From a virus, in IMG/VR virus record IMGVR_UViG_3300044681_000335, positions 1 through 22,762 of that record: a stretch of 22,762 nucleotides of DNA. One strand, 5' to 3'. The translations under genes were made by a program, and so were the position numbers. Of the stretch, positions 2,846 through 13,487 are shown piece by piece (the first letter of the stretch is position 1; every line of letters begins with the position of its first letter). Below the pieces are notes generated by a model that saw nothing but the letters and a program-made list of their open reading frames with translations, did not search any database and was not told the DNA's origin.

Positions 2846-4120
2846 ATGCCATTAGCAGGTAGAGGTAAAGGTAAAGGCGGTAACGCCAAGGTACGTCGTT
2901 TAGGAACAGTGCCAGGAATTCCAACAGGAGTAACAATCTCAGACGTTGGAACAAACCGTCCATATAATAATGGTGCAGTAACTGTAACATTTACAGCATC
3001 ATCAGATGGATCAACCCCAGCGACATCTTATACAGCAACTGCCAGTACTGGTCAAACAGCAACTGGAGCATCTTCTCCTTTAACAATTACAGGAATACCT
3101 AGTGGATCTAGTATTACAGTAACTGTCAAAGCAAACAATCAATATGGTTCGTCTGCAAATTCCACTGCTTCTGGGGCTGTTACAGTTACAACTGTACCAG
3201 CAACACCAGGTGCACCAAGTGCTTCATCTCCATCAGCAGGAACAGACACAGTTTCTTGGTCTGCTCCAGCAAATGGTGGTAAAGCAATTACAAATTATTA
3301 TTGGACGTCTTCTGATGGTAAATCTGGAAATACAGCAAATACATCTGTAAATGTTTCTCAAGAACAAGGAACTGCCCAAACATATAATGTTCGTGCAGAC
3401 AATGCTAATGGCTCTTCTGCAACATCAGCAAACTCAGGATCTGTTACTACAACATTTTCATTTGTACCATTCAGCGTATTCGGTTTCTCACCATTCGGCG
3501 TATTCGGTTTCTCACCATTCGGCGTATTCGGTTTCTCACCATTCGGCTTCTCACCATTTGGATTCTCGCCATTTGGATTCTCGCCATTTGGATTTTCTCC
3601 GTTTTCGCCATTTGGATTTGTTCCAGCAAGCAAAAGCCTATTTGGAGACACAAAAGTTAGAACACCACAAGGACTAGTTTTAGCAGAAGAGTTAGCCGTT
3701 GGAGATGAAGTCCTATCGGTTGTATTACCAGGTCTATCAGAAAGTGGTTGGACAGAAGCAGATGTTTTAGCATGGAATCTATCTAATCCAAATGAATTAG
3801 ATTTAAGCAATACTGTAGTTACTACAATAACAGAAATAGTTACTGGAACATCAGATTTGCTAGTGTTTATAAATGGAGATGGATTCTCTGGATCTCATGG
3901 AATTTTAGTACAAAGAGATGGATCTGCGCTATTTATAAAAGCAAAAGATATTTTAGAGACAGACATGGTCTGGTCATTGGTAGAAAATTCTTGGGTCGAT
4001 TTGTCCATTCTTGAAAAATATGAAGCAGAGCACCAGGTTTGGTCAATCAACACCGAACCATACGATATTTTCTTTACTGAAAATATGCTTGTACACGATA
4101 CACGACCAGATATGCAGTAG
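2846..4120 (+). CDS. Tail protein with two FN3-like domains, FG-rich repeat linker and C-terminal Hint domain, 424 aa
   Basis: A modular structural protein. Residues 1-20 are basic and Gly-rich. Residues 24-113 and 118-203 look like fibronectin type III or similar beta-sandwich domains (GIPTGVTISDV, TVTVKANNQYGSS; PGAPSASSPSAG, YNVRADNANGSS). Residues 208-259 are tandem PFGVFGFS then PFGFS repeats. From Ser264 (SLFGDTKVRTPQG, VGDEVLSV) through a SGSH block at His351 to MLVHD at 414-418 the sequence has the start, middle and end blocks of a Hint (hedgehog/intein) fold. The usual first Cys is Ser here and the final HN is HD. Only six residues follow, so it fits a C-terminal autoprocessing module rather than a splicing intein. 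AAGGAGA at 2834-2840 is the ribosome binding site. Its role in the virion is inferred from position. Confidence 0.75.
   Translation: MPLAGRGKGKGGNAKVRRLGTVPGIPTGVTISDVGTNRPYNNGAVTVTFTASSDGSTPATSYTATASTGQTATGASSPLTITGIPSGSSITVTVKANNQYGSSANSTASGAVTVTTVPATPGAPSASSPSAGTDTVSWSAPANGGKAITNYYWTSSDGKSGNTANTSVNVSQEQGTAQTYNVRADNANGSSATSANSGSVTTTFSFVPFSVFGFSPFGVFGFSPFGVFGFSPFGFSPFGFSPFGFSPFGFSPFSPFGFVPASKSLFGDTKVRTPQGLVLAEELAVGDEVLSVVLPGLSESGWTEADVLAWNLSNPNELDLSNTVVTTITEIVTGTSDLLVFINGDGFSGSHGILVQRDGSALFIKAKDILETDMVWSLVENSWVDLSILEKYEAEHQVWSINTEPYDIFFTENMLVHDTRPDMQ
3467..3622 (+). repeat. Nested 24-bp and 15-bp repeats encoding a Phe-Gly-rich linker
   Basis: Three 24-bp units (3467-3538, encoding PFSVFGFS then PFGVFGFS twice) pass into four 15-bp units (3539-3598, PFGFS), then PFS and PFGFV. 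The 15-bp unit is the 24-bp unit without its central VFG. The later copies switch from TTC to TTT codons, so they are partly diverged. Confidence 0.9.
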
Positions 4121-4124
4121 CACA

Positions 4125-4133
4125 TGCTATAAT
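4125..4133 (+). promoter_or_regulatory. Extended -10 promoter TGCTATAAT for a leaderless gene
   Basis: The box begins 5 nt after the stop at 4120 and ends 6 nt before the ATG at 4140. Transcription would begin at or next to the start codon. No ribosome binding site is present. Confidence 0.65.
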
Positions 4134-4139
4134 GTATAT

Positions 4140-4649
4140 ATGATCAAAGTAGATAGATCTAAGTATATGGATACTCCATATCCAGAAATACTAAAAGGCT
4201 CCTGGATATATTTTGCTTTTCCAAAAAATAATCCAAACTTTGATGGATTGTGTCAGGTATATTTTAATAATAAATATGAAAGTGGTAGTATTTTCTATGG
4301 AGATTACTTATTAAATGATTACCCAGAATGTTATGCCACTTGGGGTAAAGCAGATGAAAATATGGATGTCATTGGAGATAGATCCTTTGTTAAAAAGGAA
4401 CTAAGAAAAACTGGAGTAGGAACTGCATTAATGATTGAAGGGTTTGAATTTTTAAAATATATGGGTAAAAATTTAAAACTTTATCCTACTACATCTAAAG
4501 CTGGTCATAAATTATGGGCTAGGGCAACAGGAGAAGATCTAGATCCTACTGGAGAAAATAATTCTGAATATTCAATAGAAATTAAAAATTTTGAACAAAT
4601 GCTGTATCCAGATATATTTTTTTATAAAAAGAAAGTAGACATATTTTAA
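4140..4649 (+). CDS. GNAT-family N-acetyltransferase-like protein, 169 aa
   Basis: Probable acetyl-CoA-dependent acyltransferase. The segment RKTGVGTALMIEGFEFL has R89-x-x-G92-x-G94 of GNAT motif A, which holds the acetyl-CoA pyrophosphate, followed by the expected helix. LYPTTSKAGHKLWAR after it fits the strand and helix of motif B (a late residue pair where many GNATs change substrate specificity). The substrate cannot be read. The longer frame from 4011 overlaps the previous gene; the ATG at 4140, 6 nt after an extended -10 box and reading MIKVDRSKYMDT, is the better start, giving a leaderless message. It opens the auxiliary cassette, and the next gene overlaps it by one base. Confidence 0.65.
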   Translation: MIKVDRSKYMDTPYPEILKGSWIYFAFPKNNPNFDGLCQVYFNNKYESGSIFYGDYLLNDYPECYATWGKADENMDVIGDRSFVKKELRKTGVGTALMIEGFEFLKYMGKNLKLYPTTSKAGHKLWARATGEDLDPTGENNSEYSIEIKNFEQMLYPDIFFYKKKVDIF

Positions 4650-5127: not shown

Positions 5128-5790
5128 ATGATAAATAATATGTCAACTGATTTAAAAAGTGTAAGCAAATCTACTCAGCCACATAAATTTTTTGAAAGGC
5201 ACCTAGACAATAATCTCGCAATTCTTGCTGCAGAACTTCAGGATAGATATAAAAAGATAGAGCAGGCTCAGGTAACTGGTGTAACACCTATACAAGAAAA
5301 TGAATTATGGAAATCTTCACAAAGTGTATCTACGATGAAATGGAGACAATATAATGTATTTCAGTTTCATTCAGTTGGACTATTTAATTTATTTAAAAAT
5401 GTAAAAGATATGACAATAGAGGCCTGCGAATACTATGGCTTAGATTTTGAAAAACAAAAATTTATGATTCAGGGCTGGTTTAATATCAATTATATTAAAA
5501 AAGGTAAACTAGATTGGCATGATCATGGTCCTTTTGGAGCGCCAAATTTTCACGGATATTATTGTGTAAAAGCAGAACCATCATCTACATATTATCGAGT
5601 TTTTGATAAAGAGGTTGAAAATAAAAATATAGATAATAGAGCAATTCTTTCAGAAATGGGTCATCCTCATGCTCAAGCAGACTGGGACTGGGATGGACCA
5701 AGAATAACTGTTGCATATGACATAATTCCATTATCAGATATTTTAAAATTTGCTAAAAATCAAGAGCAGCATTGGATACCTTTAGCATGA
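5128..5790 (+). CDS. 2OG-Fe(II) oxygenase-like protein, first of a tandem pair, 220 aa
   Basis: Likely a double-stranded beta-helix, iron and 2-oxoglutarate dependent oxygenase of the type common in aquatic phages. Visible features are WHDHG with His131 and His133, then FHGYYCVKAEPSSTYY (His142) as the central strands, NRAILSEMGHPH with His179 and His181, and PRITVAYDI with Arg192 as a candidate 2-oxoglutarate contact. The HxH-then-GYYC layout resembles the putative oxygenase family 2OG-FeII_Oxy_5 more than prolyl hydroxylases, which use HxD. The N-terminal PHKFFERHLDNN is shared with the next gene, a clear paralogue. The ATG at 5128 is placed for a leaderless message. The substrate is unknown. 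Confidence 0.6.
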   Translation: MINNMSTDLKSVSKSTQPHKFFERHLDNNLAILAAELQDRYKKIEQAQVTGVTPIQENELWKSSQSVSTMKWRQYNVFQFHSVGLFNLFKNVKDMTIEACEYYGLDFEKQKFMIQGWFNINYIKKGKLDWHDHGPFGAPNFHGYYCVKAEPSSTYYRVFDKEVENKNIDNRAILSEMGHPHAQADWDWDGPRITVAYDIIPLSDILKFAKNQEQHWIPLA

Positions 5791-6428
5791 TAGCAATGAA
5801 GCCACCGCATAAGTTTTTTGAAAGAATCTTAAATAATAATACTGAATCTTTATATTTATATTTAGAAGATTTCTTAGATAAAATCCTTAACGGACAAATT
5901 GAAGATATTCCAAAGGATAAAGTTGTTAATTTTAATAAACATAATGGTGCTCCAACACAATTAGGAATGTATTATAATATATTTAGTTTAGACAATCCTA
6001 ATATTAAAAATCTACAGAATAGCTTAAGGGACATAGTTAAAGAGGCTTGCGAATATTATGGACACGATTATGATTCAATGGACTACATGATTCACGGTTG
6101 GTATAACTATGATCCTAAACCAGAGGGTGGTAGTAGAGTAAACCCAATAAAAAACGATCAATTTTTTCATGATCATATGGGTGGAGAAGGTGCTCCAGTT
6201 TATCACGGTTATTATTGCGTATATGCAGAACCTTCAATTACCTTCTATAAAATAAACAATGAGGTTTTATTTGAAAATAAAAATGTAAACAATAGAGCAA
6301 TTGTTTCAGAAACAGGCCATCCACACGGCAGAGATGATTGGTTTTATGAAAAGCCAAGAATTACGATAGCCTATGATATATGTCCTTCTAATATTGATAT
6401 CCCTACAGATCTATGGATAAAATTATGA
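5787..6428 (+). CDS. 2OG-Fe(II) oxygenase-like protein, second of a tandem pair, 213 aa
   Basis: Paralogue of the preceding gene: shared blocks include PHKFFERIL, EACEYYGHDYD, the HDHMG block (His128, His130), YHGYYCVYAEPSITFY, NRAIVSETGHPH (His178, His180) and PRITIAYDI (Arg191). The two proteins therefore came from one gene by duplication and have since diverged widely. An in-frame TTG at 5772 would lengthen it, but the ATG at 5787 overlaps the previous stop as ATGA, typical of coupled translation, and puts PHKFFE near the N-terminus as in the sister protein. Expected to act in the cytoplasm as an iron-dependent hydroxylase. A non-catalytic cupin cannot be excluded. Confidence 0.6.
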   Translation: MIAMKPPHKFFERILNNNTESLYLYLEDFLDKILNGQIEDIPKDKVVNFNKHNGAPTQLGMYYNIFSLDNPNIKNLQNSLRDIVKEACEYYGHDYDSMDYMIHGWYNYDPKPEGGSRVNPIKNDQFFHDHMGGEGAPVYHGYYCVYAEPSITFYKINNEVLFENKNVNNRAIVSETGHPHGRDDWFYEKPRITIAYDICPSNIDIPTDLWIKL

Positions 6429-6644: not shown

Positions 6645-8675
6645 ATGTCTGATTTTTTTAGTTTTCGTTTGTCTGAAGAGTTTATAAATGAGTATAAAAC
6701 AAAGGAACCTCCATTTGGTTTTACAGACGCAGGTGGTAATTCATTAGGAGAGATTACTTTTATTCGTACCTACTCCCGTATGAAGGAGGATGGAACTAAA
6801 GAAAGATGGCATGAGGTTTGTCGTAGAGTAATCGAGGGTATGTATTCGGCTCAGAAGAATCATGCTAAAGAAAATAGACTCCCATGGAATGACTATAAAG
6901 CACAGGCCTCTGCTAAAGAGGCTTATCAGCGTTTGTTTGAATTAAAGTGGACTCCACCAGGAAGAGGCCTATGGTCTTTCGGTACTGCTCTTACTATGGA
7001 AAAGAAAAACTCTGCTGCTTTACAGAACTGTGCTATGGTTTCCACAAAGGACATAGATCGTAACGATCCAGGACAACTATTTGGTTGGGTAATGGATGCC
7101 CTAATGATGGGCGTAGGCGTAGGCTTTGATACTTTGGGCGGGGAGAAAAATTTACCTATTTATGGTCCTACAGAACCACCACAAGTATACGAAATACCAG
7201 ATACTCGTGAAGGATGGGTAGAGTCTGTTAGATTACTTATCAATTCATTTTTAAAGCCTAATATGTATATACAAGAGTTTAACTATGATCTTATTAGGCC
7301 ACTAGGAGCCCCTATTAAGGGCTTTGGGGGTACTGCAAGTGGCCCTGCACCACTTATACAGTTGCATAAGCAGATCAGGTCTGTAATCGGCGATAGAGCA
7401 GGAGAAACCCTAGACTCAAGAGCAATAGTAGACCTTGTAAACCTTATCGGTACCTGCGTGGTATCAGGAAATGTTAGAAGGTCTGCTACCTTGGCTTTGG
7501 GGGCAGCAGAAGATAAAGATTTTATGAATTTAAAGAATGCTGAGGTTTTTCCAGAGCGCAATTCATTTGATCCAGAAAATCCAGGGTGGGCATGGATGTC
7601 TAATAACTCCATTGCTGCGACGGTAGGTACAAAGTACGAAGATTATGTAGACCTAATAGTAAATAATGGAGAGCCAGGATTTATTTGGCTTGATGTGGCT
7701 AGAAATTATGGTCGTTTGGCTGATCCAAAGGATGGAAAAGATTATCGTGTCATGGGCTTTAACCCATGTGCGGAGCAACCATTGGAGTCATACGAATTAT
7801 GTACCTTGGTTGAAGTGCATCTAAATCGTCATGAGTCTAAAGAAGATTTCTTGCGTACATTAAAGTTTGCATATTTGTATGGAAAGACGGTAACGCTGAT
7901 TCCAACACACTGGCAGCAAACAAATGGAATTATGCAGCGTAATCGTCGCATTGGAACATCGCTTACAGGTATTGCTTCATTCTCAGACAAGTTTGGCTTG
8001 CCTGTTGTGCGTGAATGGATGGACGAAGGATACAAGACTATCCGTAAATATGATCATTCATATTCAGAGTGGCTATGCGTTCGTGAATCCATTAGAGTCA
8101 CAACTGTTAAGCCATCAGGGTCTGTGTCAATTCTTTCTGGCGCAACGCCAGGAGTTCACTGGGCACCAGGCGGAGATTATTTCTTGAGAGCAATTAGATT
8201 TGGGAATACTGACCCAATGATTCACTTGTTCAAGGCTGCTGGATATAAAATGGAAGATGACCTTGTATCTGCGAATACAACTGTCGTATATTTCCCAGTT
8301 CACTCTGGACATCCAAGATCTGAAAAAGATGTTACTCTATTTGAAAAAATTGCGCTTGCTGCTACTGCTCAGAAATATTGGTCTGACAATGGCGTTTCTG
8401 TAACGCTTTCATTTGACAAAGAGACTGAAGCAAAGCATGTAGCGCCCGCTCTTCATATGTACGAAGGACAGTTAAAGGCTGTTTCATTTCTACCTATGGG
8501 CAATACGATTTATCCACAGCAACCATATACTCAAATAACCGAAGAAGAGTATAATAGTTATATCGGTCAGATTAAAAAGATCGATTGGTCTGCTATTTAT
8601 GATGGCGTCGAGAATTTGGAGGCACAGGGAGAAATGTATTGTACAACTGATACTTGTGAAATAAAAATATCGTGA
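6645..8675 (+). CDS. nrdJ: Adenosylcobalamin-dependent (class II) ribonucleoside-triphosphate reductase, monomeric type, 676 aa
   Basis: Converts ribonucleotides to deoxyribonucleotides for phage DNA synthesis, using adenosylcobalamin to make a thiyl radical. Landmarks match the Lactobacillus-type monomeric enzyme: LQNCAMVS (Cys129), then NPCAEQ with Cys375 as thiyl radical site and Glu377, then Cys386 eleven residues later as the partner of Cys129, and C-terminal CTTDTC (Cys666, Cys671), the C-x4-C pair that passes electrons from thioredoxin. VKPSGSVSILSGATPG is a conserved loop of this family. At 676 aa it is somewhat shorter than the 739-aa model enzyme. It has its own promoter and ribosome binding site. 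No thioredoxin or cobalamin gene is nearby, so both must come from the host. The next gene overlaps by a GTGA. Confidence 0.93.
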   Translation: MSDFFSFRLSEEFINEYKTKEPPFGFTDAGGNSLGEITFIRTYSRMKEDGTKERWHEVCRRVIEGMYSAQKNHAKENRLPWNDYKAQASAKEAYQRLFELKWTPPGRGLWSFGTALTMEKKNSAALQNCAMVSTKDIDRNDPGQLFGWVMDALMMGVGVGFDTLGGEKNLPIYGPTEPPQVYEIPDTREGWVESVRLLINSFLKPNMYIQEFNYDLIRPLGAPIKGFGGTASGPAPLIQLHKQIRSVIGDRAGETLDSRAIVDLVNLIGTCVVSGNVRRSATLALGAAEDKDFMNLKNAEVFPERNSFDPENPGWAWMSNNSIAATVGTKYEDYVDLIVNNGEPGFIWLDVARNYGRLADPKDGKDYRVMGFNPCAEQPLESYELCTLVEVHLNRHESKEDFLRTLKFAYLYGKTVTLIPTHWQQTNGIMQRNRRIGTSLTGIASFSDKFGLPVVREWMDEGYKTIRKYDHSYSEWLCVRESIRVTTVKPSGSVSILSGATPGVHWAPGGDYFLRAIRFGNTDPMIHLFKAAGYKMEDDLVSANTTVVYFPVHSGHPRSEKDVTLFEKIALAATAQKYWSDNGVSVTLSFDKETEAKHVAPALHMYEGQLKAVSFLPMGNTIYPQQPYTQITEEEYNSYIGQIKKIDWSAIYDGVENLEAQGEMYCTTDTCEIKIS

Positions 8676-9280
8676 AATACTATATTGAAAAAAACTTTAT
8701 TAGTTTAGAAGATGTATCAGTCATTCAAGAATACATAAAGACTATAAATTTTCATACAAAAGAAAATCACGTAGAACTTCACAACAACTTATTTAACAAT
8801 GGTGCCCCATTTGACATTCATACAAGGGGAGAAATGCCTAAAAATATATTAGAAATATTTTCTAAATATTCTAAAGCATATTGGGAGTTAGTTTCTAAAA
8901 TAGAGGTAAACAAAGAATACCATCCGCCCATGTTTTCAAAACATTATATTGCTAGGTTTAGAACTGATTCAACTGATGGATTTCATTACGCATCAGAAAG
9001 ACCAGAAGGAACTTACGGATCTTATATTTATTGGAATAATGATTTTGAAGGTGGAGAGCTTTGTTGGGAAGAAAACGGAGAATGTATAAAGCCATCTCCA
9101 GGAGATTTAGTATTCTTTTCAGAGACTAAGGATAATCGTCACCGTATATCTGAGATAACCTCTGGTTATATGTTCGTTTCGGAATCATGGATGTCTCCAG
9201 TAGGTTCTTGTCCAGATCCAAATGTTGATTATGACACGGTTCACTGGGATGACTGGGAAATAAAAGGTTTTTATGAATAG
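8672..9280 (+). CDS. 2OG-Fe(II) oxygenase-fold protein with HxA in place of HxD, 202 aa
   Basis: Prolyl-4-hydroxylase-type fold. FHYASERP, then YGSYIYWNNDFEGGEL, KPSPGDLVFF, NRHRISEITSG and SESWMS align through the following gene without long gaps. Aligned, His105-Tyr-Ala107 replaces the canonical His-x-Asp, His157 is the second iron histidine, and Met167 occupies the place of the 2-oxoglutarate-binding Arg in the neighbour. An HxA facial triad is the hallmark of iron/2OG halogenases such as SyrB2, but loss of the Arg also fits an inactive or altered enzyme. Start is GTG at 8672 overlapping the reductase stop, implying coupled translation. The substrate is not readable. Confidence 0.65.
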   Translation: MKYYIEKNFISLEDVSVIQEYIKTINFHTKENHVELHNNLFNNGAPFDIHTRGEMPKNILEIFSKYSKAYWELVSKIEVNKEYHPPMFSKHYIARFRTDSTDGFHYASERPEGTYGSYIYWNNDFEGGELCWEENGECIKPSPGDLVFFSETKDNRHRISEITSGYMFVSESWMSPVGSCPDPNVDYDTVHWDDWEIKGFYE

Positions 9281-9782
9281 CCTTGTCAAACATATTCCAG
9301 GTTTTATGAATATGATTGATGCAGCAAATGTTTATTTATATGCTAAAGAAAATGACGACAAGTTTGCTGAATACGGAAATAACGAAAAAGAGTTTACGTA
9401 TCATGCTAATTTTTTTGATCCAGACATAAAAAATATTTTAGATCAATATGGACTAGAAGTATGGAAGTTTGTATCAGAAAACTACGACGGAACCTTTGTT
9501 GAGTACGACAACTCTAAGACACATTTGGCCAGGTTCTCAGAAGGATACGGAATGCATGAGCATTTTGACTCTACAAAGCCAAACGATATTGCAACTCTGA
9601 TATATATAAATGATAACTATGATGGCGGAGAAATTTATTTCCCAGAATTAGATATTAATATAAAGCCTAATGCTGGAGACTTGGTATGCTTTCCAGATAC
9701 TCCAGATTTTATCCATGGGGTAAAGGCAATAACGAGCGGTATAAGATATACCTGCCCTCGTTGGGTAACACGCTTAGTATGA
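9273..9782 (+). CDS. 2OG-Fe(II) oxygenase, prolyl-4-hydroxylase type, 169 aa
   Basis: Appears to be a complete iron/2-oxoglutarate oxygenase. His97-Phe-Asp99 and His148 form the expected facial triad, and Arg158, ten residues after His148, is the usual 2-oxoglutarate contact. YDGGEIYFPELDINIKPNAGDLVCF is typical of the prolyl-4-hydroxylase family core. The ATG at 9273 lies within the end of the previous gene (8-nt overlap), so the pair is probably translated together. The substrate could be a proline side chain or another protein or small molecule; nothing in the sequence decides. An in-cis partnership with the HxA protein before it is possible. Confidence 0.75.
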   Translation: MNSLVKHIPGFMNMIDAANVYLYAKENDDKFAEYGNNEKEFTYHANFFDPDIKNILDQYGLEVWKFVSENYDGTFVEYDNSKTHLARFSEGYGMHEHFDSTKPNDIATLIYINDNYDGGEIYFPELDINIKPNAGDLVCFPDTPDFIHGVKAITSGIRYTCPRWVTRLV

Positions 9783-9797: not shown

Positions 9798-12700
9798 ATG
9801 TCTAGTTTATCAAATTTATATGCAGAAAAAATATATGCGGAACATCCGCAATTTTTGTGGGCACTAGATGATCAGGCTGACTATGTATCATTAATATCTG
9901 AATCAAACAGAGACATGTCCTTATGGTCAATAGACAATGGATCATCTATTGAAACAGAAGAACTTTTAGATGCACCTTTTCCAGATAGTATAATTAATAA
10001 AGTTACGCCAACAGCAGTATTGTCAGAAACATTTTCTATGACGCTGGTAAGTCCAGAAATAATTGATGTAGATAATTTAAATCAAATTCTTAAAACATTT
10101 TCTATAGGGTCCTATTTTTATACTGCAAGCCCATATGCTTTAAGTATTGATATTGGATATAGGTACTATGATGATGCTCTAGAAACATATGTTGATGTTT
10201 TAAAGACATATGACGCATCACTAAAAGATAGATGGTATTTTCTTTCAGAAACTTTTAGTCCCCAATTTGAAAACTCTACAATAAGGCTAGTTATCAAAAT
10301 AAATTACTTGGGCACATCAGAAGAATTATCAGATTATATATTTTATATTAACGGGGTAACTATAGGTCAATGGGCAGAAGAATTTCAATCAAGTTCATTG
10401 GGCGTCACGCCAATAACTCTTCCATCTAATATTGCATTAGAAAATTCAAATGTTGTGCAAGCATCAGCATATGGACTATCTGAAGATTTTGGATATTATC
10501 TAATAAAAGATAATTCTTTGACCGCTAAAAATTTTGGAGTTCCAATGGTTTTTGGATCTCAAAATGTAACTAAGTTATACGATAACGGAAACAAGCCAAG
10601 CGTAATAGTGCCTTCTAATGGCATGCTGTCTAATGGCGGAAGATATCAGGAATTTACTTTAGAGTTTTGGTTAAGAACAAATAATTCTTCTTCAGTATCA
10701 AAAAGATTAGTTGGGCCAATTGGGTCTACAGACGGTATTTATCTAGATGGATCATTCTTAATATTAAAAATCAACAACGAATATTCTTCCTATTATGTAG
10801 GACAATGGGAAAGACCAATGCTAATTCATTGGAGGTATTCCACAAACTTATCAACAGTACTTTTAAATGGAGAAGAAATTATAAATTTAGTTTTGGATAG
10901 TTCAAGTTTGTCTTTGCCTGAAAAACTAAACGAACTTGATAAAGATCAAGACTGGATAGGCTTTTATGCTTATACAGATATTCAGCCAGTGGAATTAGAC
11001 TGTGTGGCAATTTATCCATACCTTGTCCCGTCTTTGGTTGCAAAAAGAAGGTTTGTTTATGGACAAGGTGTTCAATATCCAGAAAACTTAAATGCATCCT
11101 ACGGAGGAAGTACAGTATTATTTGATTATGCCTTTGCAGATTATACTAAAAATTATAACTATCCAGATCTTGGCTCATGGACTCAGGGATCGTTAGATAA
11201 TATTGTTGTTGAAGATAATTATTTAACATCTCCAGTATTTGCCATACCAGAAATAGTTATAGACGATGCCTCAAAAACAGAAACAGACCTACTTGTAGAT
11301 TGTGCAGTAATCCAAAACGAAGAATCTTTGTTTTTAAATCTTAAGCCTTCTGAAGACTGGAACTCAATAAATTCATATTTATATTTTAATAATTTTTCTC
11401 TAAATGGTCAAGTCCCACATGCATTTTATGGTTTGTTTAAAAAACCGTCAGAATATTCTGGAACAGAAGTTCTTATAAGACTCGAAGATCAGTCATCAAA
11501 TTATTTTTCAATAGAGTGTGTAGGTAATGACATTAACTATATTTTAAAATATGGAGAAGATGATCCAGTAGTTATTTATGAATCATTATCTGTACCTGAT
11601 GAAGATATTTTTGCGGTAGGAATTGAAATAGATATATTTAGAGACTATTTCGGAAATAACATAACATCTTTTTTTAATAGTCCAAACTTGTCGGTATATG
11701 TAGGAGGTACAAAAGATTTTACAAAGACCTTCACTGGAAATATATATAAAATAGGGATATGTTCTGAAAAGAATGTAAAAGATATTGCAAATTTGTTTAA
11801 CTCATTTGGAGTACCAAAAGAATATGAAAATATTTTTAATAATTATGGTCCTGGCATTGAGTATGATGGTGGAGATGCAGATCAGTTATTTTGGCAGTAT
11901 ATTTTGGATGGAGGGTCTTATAATACATTTTTAGCAGGCCAACTTTCAAATCATAACCCAAGTTGCGGAATAACGCCCAAAAACTATTTTGATAGTTTTT
12001 ACTTAGATGTTGATATTAGGGGATCTTGGAAAGATTATATTCCCCTGTCATACTTTGGACAGTATATAACTGATGAATATGGGGATAGTAAGTTTGGTTT
12101 AGATTTTATACAGTTTAACATAAATTATCCAGCACCAACAAAATTTAAAGAAACAGAATCTGTTAGTGAAGATGGCTGGCTTTATTCCGAACTTGTAGCA
12201 GAATATTCTTATCCAGTTCAAAGAACTTATGAAGCACTAGATAATTATTTATATACTGGTTATGTAGATTATCAAGACTTAGCAGAAAAATCTATTAAAA
12301 CTTATTCTTATGATACCTCAGATGCAATTCTAAAAACATATATTACTTTTGAATATTTAGAAACTGGGGCAAATGCAACTAATGGATTTTTTGCAAATAC
12401 ACAAGATGTTCCCAAAAATGGCGTAATTTCTCCAGGGGACGAATGGATAAATACAAAATATGAAGTTGTAGATAATATAATTATTTATCCACCCAAAGGT
12501 GCCGACTTTAATGATCTTGCAATAGTAGTACATTTAGAATTTGAGGTAGATGGAATTAAATATCAGCCAGTAAAGATTAAAAATCTACAGTTGGCATCTC
12601 AAGCATTTAATTACAATACAGCAAACAATGTTGGTACCAGATTTGGTACTAATGTTTATCCATATGTTAACAATGGATATTATTATAATTATAAAGCAAA

Positions 12701-13487
12701 AAATCCTTTCACCATATACAAGGGGTCATCACCTTACTTATATCTGACAAGATACTCAGGGCTAGAAATGCGGGGAGACTATGATCCACTTATTAATCGT
12801 GGAGTAGCCATACCAGTTAATTCAAGCAAAACACAGAACTACGAAGTTATGGCAATGCAATCTTTGATTAGATTTAATGGAGACTTTTTCCCATATGCAC
12901 CAACAAAGGTTATGCAAATAAATGCAAAAAATAAAGTTATTAAATTTTATATGGTAGCAAATCACCCAACTGGTAAAAGGGCAAAAATATATGCAATAGA
13001 TGGAAACACTGGTGCATTATATGATGGTATTGTATTTTATCTAAATGGACAAATTGTTAAGGAGCCTATATTAAATATTAATGAATGGGCGATGCTAGGC
13101 ATAGGCTTCCCAAGTATTTTAAACTTTAAGTCATACGCTGGATCTATTATGATAAATGGTCCTATTATTTTTAATAGCCTATCCTATTATCAGACCACAA
13201 ATCTTCAGGCAATTCAGTCTGTAACGAAAAGGCCATGGGCAAGGGTAAAGTTTGCCCTAGAAGGACTGTTTGACTGGGAGTACTGGAATCAATATTATTT
13301 GTGGCAAGGGGTATTAGTCCAGTCCTCAGTTAGTTATTATGGAGTAAATCCATCTGATCTTTATAAGGCGTATACAGGAACAAATAAAATAATTATTGAT
13401 GATGACCGTGTTTTTAGTATTCAGGAGTACGAATACTCAGTATTCAAAGACCTGCTATGGCAATCACAAATATCAGACCCAGTATAA
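9798..13487 (+). CDS. Large minor tail protein with LamG/concanavalin-like domains, 1229 aa
   Basis: Probable virion protein of the tail tip or side, binding carbohydrate. The first residues (SLSNLYAEKIYAEHPQFLWALDD) are a start typical of LamG-containing minor tail proteins of actinophages. A beta-rich region follows to about 190. About 283-420 is a LamG-like jelly roll (YQEFTLEFWLRTN, LIHWRYSTNLSTVLLNGEE, IGFYAYTDIQPVELDCVAIYP). About 535-685 looks like a second, weaker one (FYGLFKKPSEYSG ending in GNIYKIGICSEKN). The remaining half is beta-rich with many Tyr, Asn and Asp and ends EYEYSVFKDLLWQSQISDPV. No enzyme motif is visible. The only upstream signal is a promoter whose box abuts the ATG, so the message is expected to have little or no leader. 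Confidence 0.7.
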   Translation: MSSLSNLYAEKIYAEHPQFLWALDDQADYVSLISESNRDMSLWSIDNGSSIETEELLDAPFPDSIINKVTPTAVLSETFSMTLVSPEIIDVDNLNQILKTFSIGSYFYTASPYALSIDIGYRYYDDALETYVDVLKTYDASLKDRWYFLSETFSPQFENSTIRLVIKINYLGTSEELSDYIFYINGVTIGQWAEEFQSSSLGVTPITLPSNIALENSNVVQASAYGLSEDFGYYLIKDNSLTAKNFGVPMVFGSQNVTKLYDNGNKPSVIVPSNGMLSNGGRYQEFTLEFWLRTNNSSSVSKRLVGPIGSTDGIYLDGSFLILKINNEYSSYYVGQWERPMLIHWRYSTNLSTVLLNGEEIINLVLDSSSLSLPEKLNELDKDQDWIGFYAYTDIQPVELDCVAIYPYLVPSLVAKRRFVYGQGVQYPENLNASYGGSTVLFDYAFADYTKNYNYPDLGSWTQGSLDNIVVEDNYLTSPVFAIPEIVIDDASKTETDLLVDCAVIQNEESLFLNLKPSEDWNSINSYLYFNNFSLNGQVPHAFYGLFKKPSEYSGTEVLIRLEDQSSNYFSIECVGNDINYILKYGEDDPVVIYESLSVPDEDIFAVGIEIDIFRDYFGNNITSFFNSPNLSVYVGGTKDFTKTFTGNIYKIGICSEKNVKDIANLFNSFGVPKEYENIFNNYGPGIEYDGGDADQLFWQYILDGGSYNTFLAGQLSNHNPSCGITPKNYFDSFYLDVDIRGSWKDYIPLSYFGQYITDEYGDSKFGLDFIQFNINYPAPTKFKETESVSEDGWLYSELVAEYSYPVQRTYEALDNYLYTGYVDYQDLAEKSIKTYSYDTSDAILKTYITFEYLETGANATNGFFANTQDVPKNGVISPGDEWINTKYEVVDNIIIYPPKGADFNDLAIVVHLEFEVDGIKYQPVKIKNLQLASQAFNYNTANNVGTRFGTNVYPYVNNGYYYNYKAKNPFTIYKGSSPYLYLTRYSGLEMRGDYDPLINRGVAIPVNSSKTQNYEVMAMQSLIRFNGDFFPYAPTKVMQINAKNKVIKFYMVANHPTGKRAKIYAIDGNTGALYDGIVFYLNGQIVKEPILNINEWAMLGIGFPSILNFKSYAGSIMINGPIIFNSLSYYQTTNLQAIQSVTKRPWARVKFALEGLFDWEYWNQYYLWQGVLVQSSVSYYGVNPSDLYKAYTGTNKIIIDDDRVFSIQEYEYSVFKDLLWQSQISDPV

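Follow-up and report, generated by a model that had tools for sequence, protein, structure and literature searches.

The question raised by this locus is what a phage adhesin gains from ending in a domain that resembles the autoprocessing parts of inteins and hedgehog proteins, and whether such an end is cut off, kept as a binding tip, or used to form a covalent bond. The window, namely the whole analysed stretch of 22,762 bases, coincides with the entire virus record IMGVR_UViG_3300044681_000335, of a water-borne phage, and the gene under study has the following features, the functional ones being predicted.

2846..4120, + strand: gene of the putative Hint-tipped adhesin, an ORF of 424 aa, stop codon included in the coordinates
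2903..3454, + strand: two beta-sandwich (FN3/PKD-like) domains, residues 20-203 (full-length model; weak Pfam PKD match, E 8.6e-4; 126 relatives in viral contigs)
3455..3634, + strand: low-complexity FSPFG linker, residues 204-263, disordered (composition; pLDDT <50 for 207-261)
3635..4099, + strand: Hint domain, residues 264-418 (profile search, AlphaFold model, structure matches)
3635..3637, + strand: Ser264 (AGC), position-1 nucleophile, with the predicted cut at Lys263/Ser264 (register in the structural alignment; Ser/Cys conservation)
3887..3898, + strand: block B Ser348-x-x-His351 (SGSH, 348-351; His351 in 64/65 Ser-type Hints)
4064..4066, + strand: Asp407 (EPYD motif), taking the block F His position in our reading of the alignments (64/65 Ser-type Hints)
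4094..4099, + strand: His417-Asp418, end of the Hint (His-Asn in inteins), with Asp418 at 4097-4099 (structural alignment; Asp ends 60 and Asn 5 of the 65 Ser-type Hints)
4100..4117, + strand: six-residue tail TRPDMQ (sequence)

The gene comes after two genes matching tail-fibre PHROGs, and portal, head protease, and major capsid-like genes are found further along the window; the label of tail protein is a prediction drawn from the position after the tail-fibre-like genes and from the names of the relatives. The full-length model (mean pLDDT 77.1, 8 alignment rows) places in order two beta-sandwiches, a very-low-confidence stretch (207-261) with the FSPFG repeats, the Hint domain, and a loose C-terminal tail, and the linker (204-263) includes 22 Phe, 10 Pro, 10 Gly, and 11 Ser.

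Fold and catalytic register of the C-terminal domain

When the single sequence is compared with Pfam, Hint_2 (PF13403) is matched with an E-value of 0.02 and 15.7 bits, below the curated cut-off of 28.4, and the NCBIfam scan has no Hint model among its matches. Hint_2 matches are found in 16 of 30 relatives (E up to 1, best 6.8e-6), and a profile of eight relatives matches the BIL domain 2lwy (6.6e-6), the gp41-1 intein (3.3e-5), and the PolB intein (6.5e-4). Moreover, the AlphaFold model of the domain (pLDDT 91.5, pTM 0.87, 30 alignment rows) finds BIL 2lwy in a structure search with an E-value of 1.3e-8, and VIA-align superposes it on Tetrahymena BIL2 (Z 17.1, rmsd 2.3, 137 residues), on BIL 2lwy (Z 15.8, rmsd 1.9, 130 residues), and on hedgehog 1at0 (Z 15.7, rmsd 2.2, 130 residues). 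Specifically, the first aligned position pairs Ser264 (residue 11 of the model) with residue 1 in the Mtu RecA intein and with residue 258 in hedgehog, which we take to be the catalytic Cys, and the last pairs Asp418 (residue 165 of the model) with residue 440 in the RecA intein, presumably the terminal Asn. Because the structural alignments begin and end there, Ser264 and Asp418 are in register with the Hint catalytic positions.

The hallmarks of the superfamily, namely the fold, the position-1 nucleophile in register, and the block B Ser-x-x-His, are all present and, on the predicted fold and the profile matches, residues 264-418 are a Hint domain and a member of the Hint superfamily; the profile and fold results rule out a chance motif match. 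The earlier note had pointed to Ser264, SGSH with His351, MLVHD with Asp418, and six further residues, all of which are present in the ORF (the six being TRPDMQ), and its proposal of a Ser nucleophile and an HD end is borne out by the structural alignment and the conservation. Likewise, the structure prediction that it suggested as a check returned a Hint fold, with the model confidence and the BIL, intein, and hedgehog matches given above, while its span of 3634-4102 does contain the domain with ends that are off by 1-3 bases.

Conservation and the proposed self-removal

Scans of viral contigs yielded 6 loci from the single domain and 70 from the profile, giving with the window 71 members that represent 56 distinct proteins, of which 37 have Ser and 18 have Cys at position 1 (the latter of the Erwinia jumbo-phage kind) and one is truncated (L052). 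The Hint tip is present in many aquatic, uncultivated phages, on proteins that differ in their N-terminal parts and linker types (FSPFG, PFFPPFF, NYGN, HYAGFYHGF, VIINEP, PAPP), and the Ser-type Hint is followed by 3-13 residues, or by 28 in three proteins. A search of a bacterial and archaeal collection confirmed as relatives 0 of 15 pattern matches, a weak test because it used a single eight-residue pattern.

Conservation was evaluated on 96 members with 88 distinct Hints, a set that includes relatives of the N-terminal domains (from the best 80 of 126 matches) and two second copies and leaves out a stand-alone Hint (L081, see below) and the truncated proteins. The scans were keyed on C-terminal or FN3 motifs, never on position 1, and of the 88 distinct Hints (partly from the best 80 of 126) 65 carry Ser at this position and the other 23 Cys, while the residue that precedes it is variable. 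Among the Ser-type Hints, 64/65 keep His351, 64/65 keep Asp407, and 65/65 keep Thr269 and Gly286-Asp287. The Ser1 codon is TCN in 29 and AGY in 9 of 38 Ser-type representatives (<80% identity), two codon families that no single base change links without leaving Ser. The sole Ser-type exception of the 65, L139, lacks both His351 and Asp407 and still has its Hint fused, a state shared by L224 and L225 from a later sample; in the FN3 family, most Cys-Hints carry Glu or Gln instead of the block B His.

The C-terminal half is altered. The 65 Ser-type Hints end in Asp (60) or Asn (5), preceded by His (30), Tyr (22), or Phe (13), and the +1 residue is Gly in 24, Ser in 21, Arg in 8, Thr in 6 (as in the window), Leu in 3, and Val in 2. 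Given the variation at +1 and at the penultimate position, and with Asp standing in most cases for the terminal Asn, it is only the N-terminal step that seems to be maintained. The locus might otherwise encode a mini-intein by which residues 1-263 would be spliced to TRPDMQ, or a domain that trims the tail by C-terminal cleavage, as the +1 Thr and the His-Asp end of the window would allow, and splicing has been reported for inteins with a terminal Asp. However, Asp occupies the block F His position, His is penultimate in fewer than half of the Ser-type Hints, and Gly, Arg, Leu, or Val often stands at +1; with the terminal Asn replaced by Asp in 60/65 and no conserved +1 residue, splicing is very improbable. 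A class 3 intein, which has a block F Cys, was set aside as well, given that in our reading the Cys of INCEPYD is at another block F position, with Thr in the window.

The reading that we favour, with a probability of roughly 0.55, is that the Hint functions as a C-terminal self-removing tip, comparable in its action to B-type BIL domains or to the initial half of the autoprocessing of hedgehog. Once folding is complete, the Lys263-Ser264 bond would be attacked by Ser264, and an N-O shift aided by Ser348-x-x-His351 would give an ester that would then be cut, most simply by water as the presumed acceptor. The products would be residues 1-263, with the FSPFG end exposed and a computed mass of 26.1 kDa (not the 27 kDa or so previously estimated), and a 17.8 kDa Hint fragment, and the purpose may be to unmask, or to time the exposure of, a sticky low-complexity end. 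We infer the cleavage itself from what was computed, namely the fold, the register, the N-terminal conservation, the C-terminal alteration, and the Hint-less equivalents described below: the maintenance of the N-terminal half, the alteration of the C-terminal half, and the existence of Hint-less relatives would be jointly explained by cleavage after Lys263. Release of the N-terminal part, as the earlier note had it, is supported by structure prediction and comparative evidence and stays a prediction.

In favour of self-removal are the presence of Ser or Cys at position 1 in 88/88, the use of both Ser codon families, the location of the predicted cut site after a disordered linker in the full-length model, and an inactive-looking stand-alone copy. 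Conversely, the block B residues are lost in most FN3-family Cys-Hints and in L139, L224, and L225, the stand-alone copy is one lineage, and Ser1 Hints that perform N-terminal cleavage only are slower than Cys ones.

Hint-less adhesins and exchange of the tip

The N-terminal part of the window protein (residues 1-200), used as a query, gave 126 matches, the best 80 of which were retained and correspond to 79 loci and 61 distinct ORFs; two fragments of <10 residues were left out. Of the 59 usable ORFs (from the best 80 of 126), 39 have a Hint (32 Ser, 7 Cys), 16 have none, and 4 run off the contig end. The 16 Hint-less adhesins end within the repeats or shortly beyond them, a short Cys-rich end being present in some, and 6 of them finish in ...FR and 10 otherwise, the latter counting against self-removal; in two Cys-Hint relatives, FSPFR is found directly before Cys1 (FSPFR/C). 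On sequence comparison, the close relatives devoid of a Hint appear to stop about at the predicted cut position. A six-frame search of the 16 Hint-less loci gave no Hint, and none turned up elsewhere in the 14/14 whole contigs searched (of 16 distinct); the same profile was positive in 50/50 Hint-bearing contigs, many of which contributed to it.

On a tree built from 56 rows of the FN3 region, 9 changes among Ser-Hint, Cys-Hint, and no Hint are needed, and well-supported branches alone require at least 2 changes for the Ser-Hint, at least 2 for no Hint, and at least 3 for the Cys-Hint. A second search, which started from a Cys-Hint adhesin and retained the best 80 of 202 relatives, brought in another 41 distinct proteins, of which 18 carry a Hint (10 Ser, 8 Cys), 20 have none, many of these having Cys-rich ends, and 3 are open; overlap was compared with the first N-terminal set only, and these counts are not summed with the set of 88 Hints. 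Relative to the nearest phage (L013), identity is 69-97% for the neighbour genes and 82% for the FN3 part, but 49% for the Hint. Since Ser-Hint, Cys-Hint, Cys-rich, and Hint-less ends occur on relatives of the same adhesin, the tip is an exchangeable part. The Cys-rich ends that take the place of the Hint in this adhesin family (L206, L203, L252, L254, L214) span about 20-35 residues and possibly form a small disulfide knob. In some phages (L082, L083; 6/15 contigs; also G049), two Hint-bearing genes are located about 8-12 kb apart.

This exchange also fits a plain binding module, that is, an uncleaved structural or receptor-binding tip in which Ser1, His351, and Asp407 would be kept for folding or binding. 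The replacement of the tip with Cys-rich ends or with nothing, its low identity in the nearest phage, as expected of a variable adhesin tip, and the lineages without block B residues are all in keeping with such a role. Against it, the best-conserved positions are the catalytic ones of the superfamily, with position 1 invariably Ser or Cys behind a variable residue, and the catalytic positions are lost together in a stand-alone copy that retains the domain. An uncleaved tip is a less likely explanation, which owes its standing chiefly to the exchangeability of the tip and to the few lineages that lost the block B residues.

The stand-alone copy is a separate gene of 175 aa (L081, 5695-6222), the second Hint of one phage represented by two contigs. 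According to the alignment, it has Lys at position 1, has lost the block B His and the HD end, and carries Lys in place of Asp407; an adhesin-like gene with its own stop is found upstream, with a small ORF between them. It is the only stand-alone Hint that was met, has no adhesin in front, and belongs to a single lineage; with nothing in front to cut, this Hint appears to have lost the cutting residues. Its start (MSEELSAWQKYK) resembles the start of neighbouring DUF6171-like genes (L012, 5995-6273), as though this Hint had acquired a different start by fusion.

The Hint-less adhesins also bear on a covalent role, in which the Ser ester would be handed to a specific nucleophile (a virion protein, glycan, or lipid), fixing the C-terminus of the adhesin to a partner, just as hedgehog passes its ester to cholesterol. 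Such a transfer is permitted by Hint chemistry, and an acceptor could be activated by the end Asp together with Asp407, which a single Ser-type Hint lacks, but only six residues follow the Hint, with no acceptor-binding region, and the Hint-less relatives finish in a free carboxyl, making a transfer unlikely. Its bolder version, a phage-evolved acyl-transfer tip that upon contact or assembly would covalently fix the FG-rich end to the virion or host surface, with the acceptor activated by Asp418 and Asp407 in place of the splicing residues, is quite unlikely. The covalent step in assembly or host attachment suggested by the earlier note found no support: 16 of 59 distinct adhesins (from the best 80 of 126) are Hint-less, and because closely related adhesins occur without any Hint, an activated C-terminus is not needed in those phages.

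Known systems, neighbouring genes, and significance

In fold and situation, the Ser-type Hint is closest to the BIL domains, which, according to PMC7765530 and PMC7664689, are found in variable, non-conserved proteins and are thought to cleave rather than splice. The B-type (2lwy, 6y75) provides the best fold matches, and shares the lack of a conserved +1 nucleophile. The phage domain has blocks A and B and an altered C-terminal motif, which might correspond to the B-type set of all intein motifs but the C-terminal one, and its sequence identity to 2lwy is about 17-18%. In contrast to BIL domains, the phage type has Ser and not Cys at position 1, an Asp end, and Asp at the block F His position, and it is located at the extreme C-terminus of adhesins behind a low-complexity linker. 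The His-Asn end of A-type BIL domains is absent, being mostly His/Tyr/Phe-Asp, as are the intein features of a terminal Asn/Gln with penultimate His and of a conserved Cys/Ser/Thr at +1 with a C-extein that completes the host protein. Hedgehog (1at0) is similar in fold, in the C-terminal position behind the part that would be released, and in the restriction to N-terminal chemistry, whereas the phage Hint has Ser instead of Cys, no sterol-recognition region, and no known acceptor.

Homologous Cys-type Hints are found at the C-terminus of proteins annotated as virion structural or tail in jumbo phages, including Erwinia phages of the Alexandravirus kind, Erwinia phage Y3 (gp110), Yersinia phage fHe-Yen9-02, and Salmonella phage Sen-NF. 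They differ from the Ser type in having Cys1, THEH, HN followed by Thr, and a tail of 9-10 residues (18/18 distinct), as well as other N-terminal parts; a more distant relative in phage NCTB has Cys1, TQQH, and HN. Peptidase S74 domains are unrelated to Hint in fold and residues. A likeness in role may nonetheless be drawn by analogy, given that the intramolecular chaperone is presented in PMC7824862 as a self-removing C-terminal domain common to otherwise different phage fibres. Some phage Hints of the Cys and related types were already annotated, the Y3 record reading "contains intein domain" and some uncultivated relatives being named "Hint domain containing protein". As judged by titles, abstract openings, and some passages, the open-licence papers that were searched include no recognisable description of a tail adhesin of a phage with a terminal Hint, nor one of the Ser type as a family, of the Asp at its end, or of its replacement by Hint-less ends; the inteins inside terminases, helicases, polymerases, and RNR reported in some of these papers belong to a different setting.

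Among the neighbours, two genes (8672-9280 and 9273-9782) code for 2OG-Fe(II) oxygenases whose family profile best matches prolyl hydroxylases in the PDB. Across 15 contigs, 24/34 oxygenase matches are within 6 kb of Hint genes versus 9.1 expected (15/25 versus 4.5 without three near-copy contigs), and the genes cluster near adhesins in 11/15 contigs. They follow 9/15 Hint-less versus 10/35 Hint-bearing adhesins and, because they are found after Hint-less adhesins too, they go with the adhesin and not with the Hint, so their candidacy as Hint partners was dropped; the enzymes might hydroxylate the Pro-/Phe-rich linkers. Two related genes (5128-5790 and 5772-6428; PHKFFER ... WHDHG ... GHPH) gave no family at useful E-values in Pfam and PHROG searches, and relatives of the pair follow 14/35 Hint-bearing and 12/15 Hint-less adhesins. 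Comparison of the profiles of two other neighbour families with that of the 2OG family gave no match. Directly after the Hint gene, a GNAT-like gene (4131-4649; weak, E 0.025) belongs to a family found downstream of 8/35 Hint-bearing and 0/15 Hint-less adhesins. A 1229-aa protein (9798-13487), conserved in 4/18 loci compared, had no match in the PHROG search. Lastly, tryptophan halogenase genes are present in Hint-tip phages (L003, 1636-3234; L012, 3954-5525), in 5/26 contigs and mostly distant from the Hint.

With this domain, the chemistry of hedgehog proteins and inteins reaches the distal end of the adhesins of many uncultivated phages. Related adhesins exist in natural Hint-plus, Hint-minus, and dead-Hint versions, and the purpose of such autoprocessing is therefore directly testable. 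A Ser-dependent, Asp-ended Hint restricted to N-terminal cleavage could, moreover, serve as a reagent.
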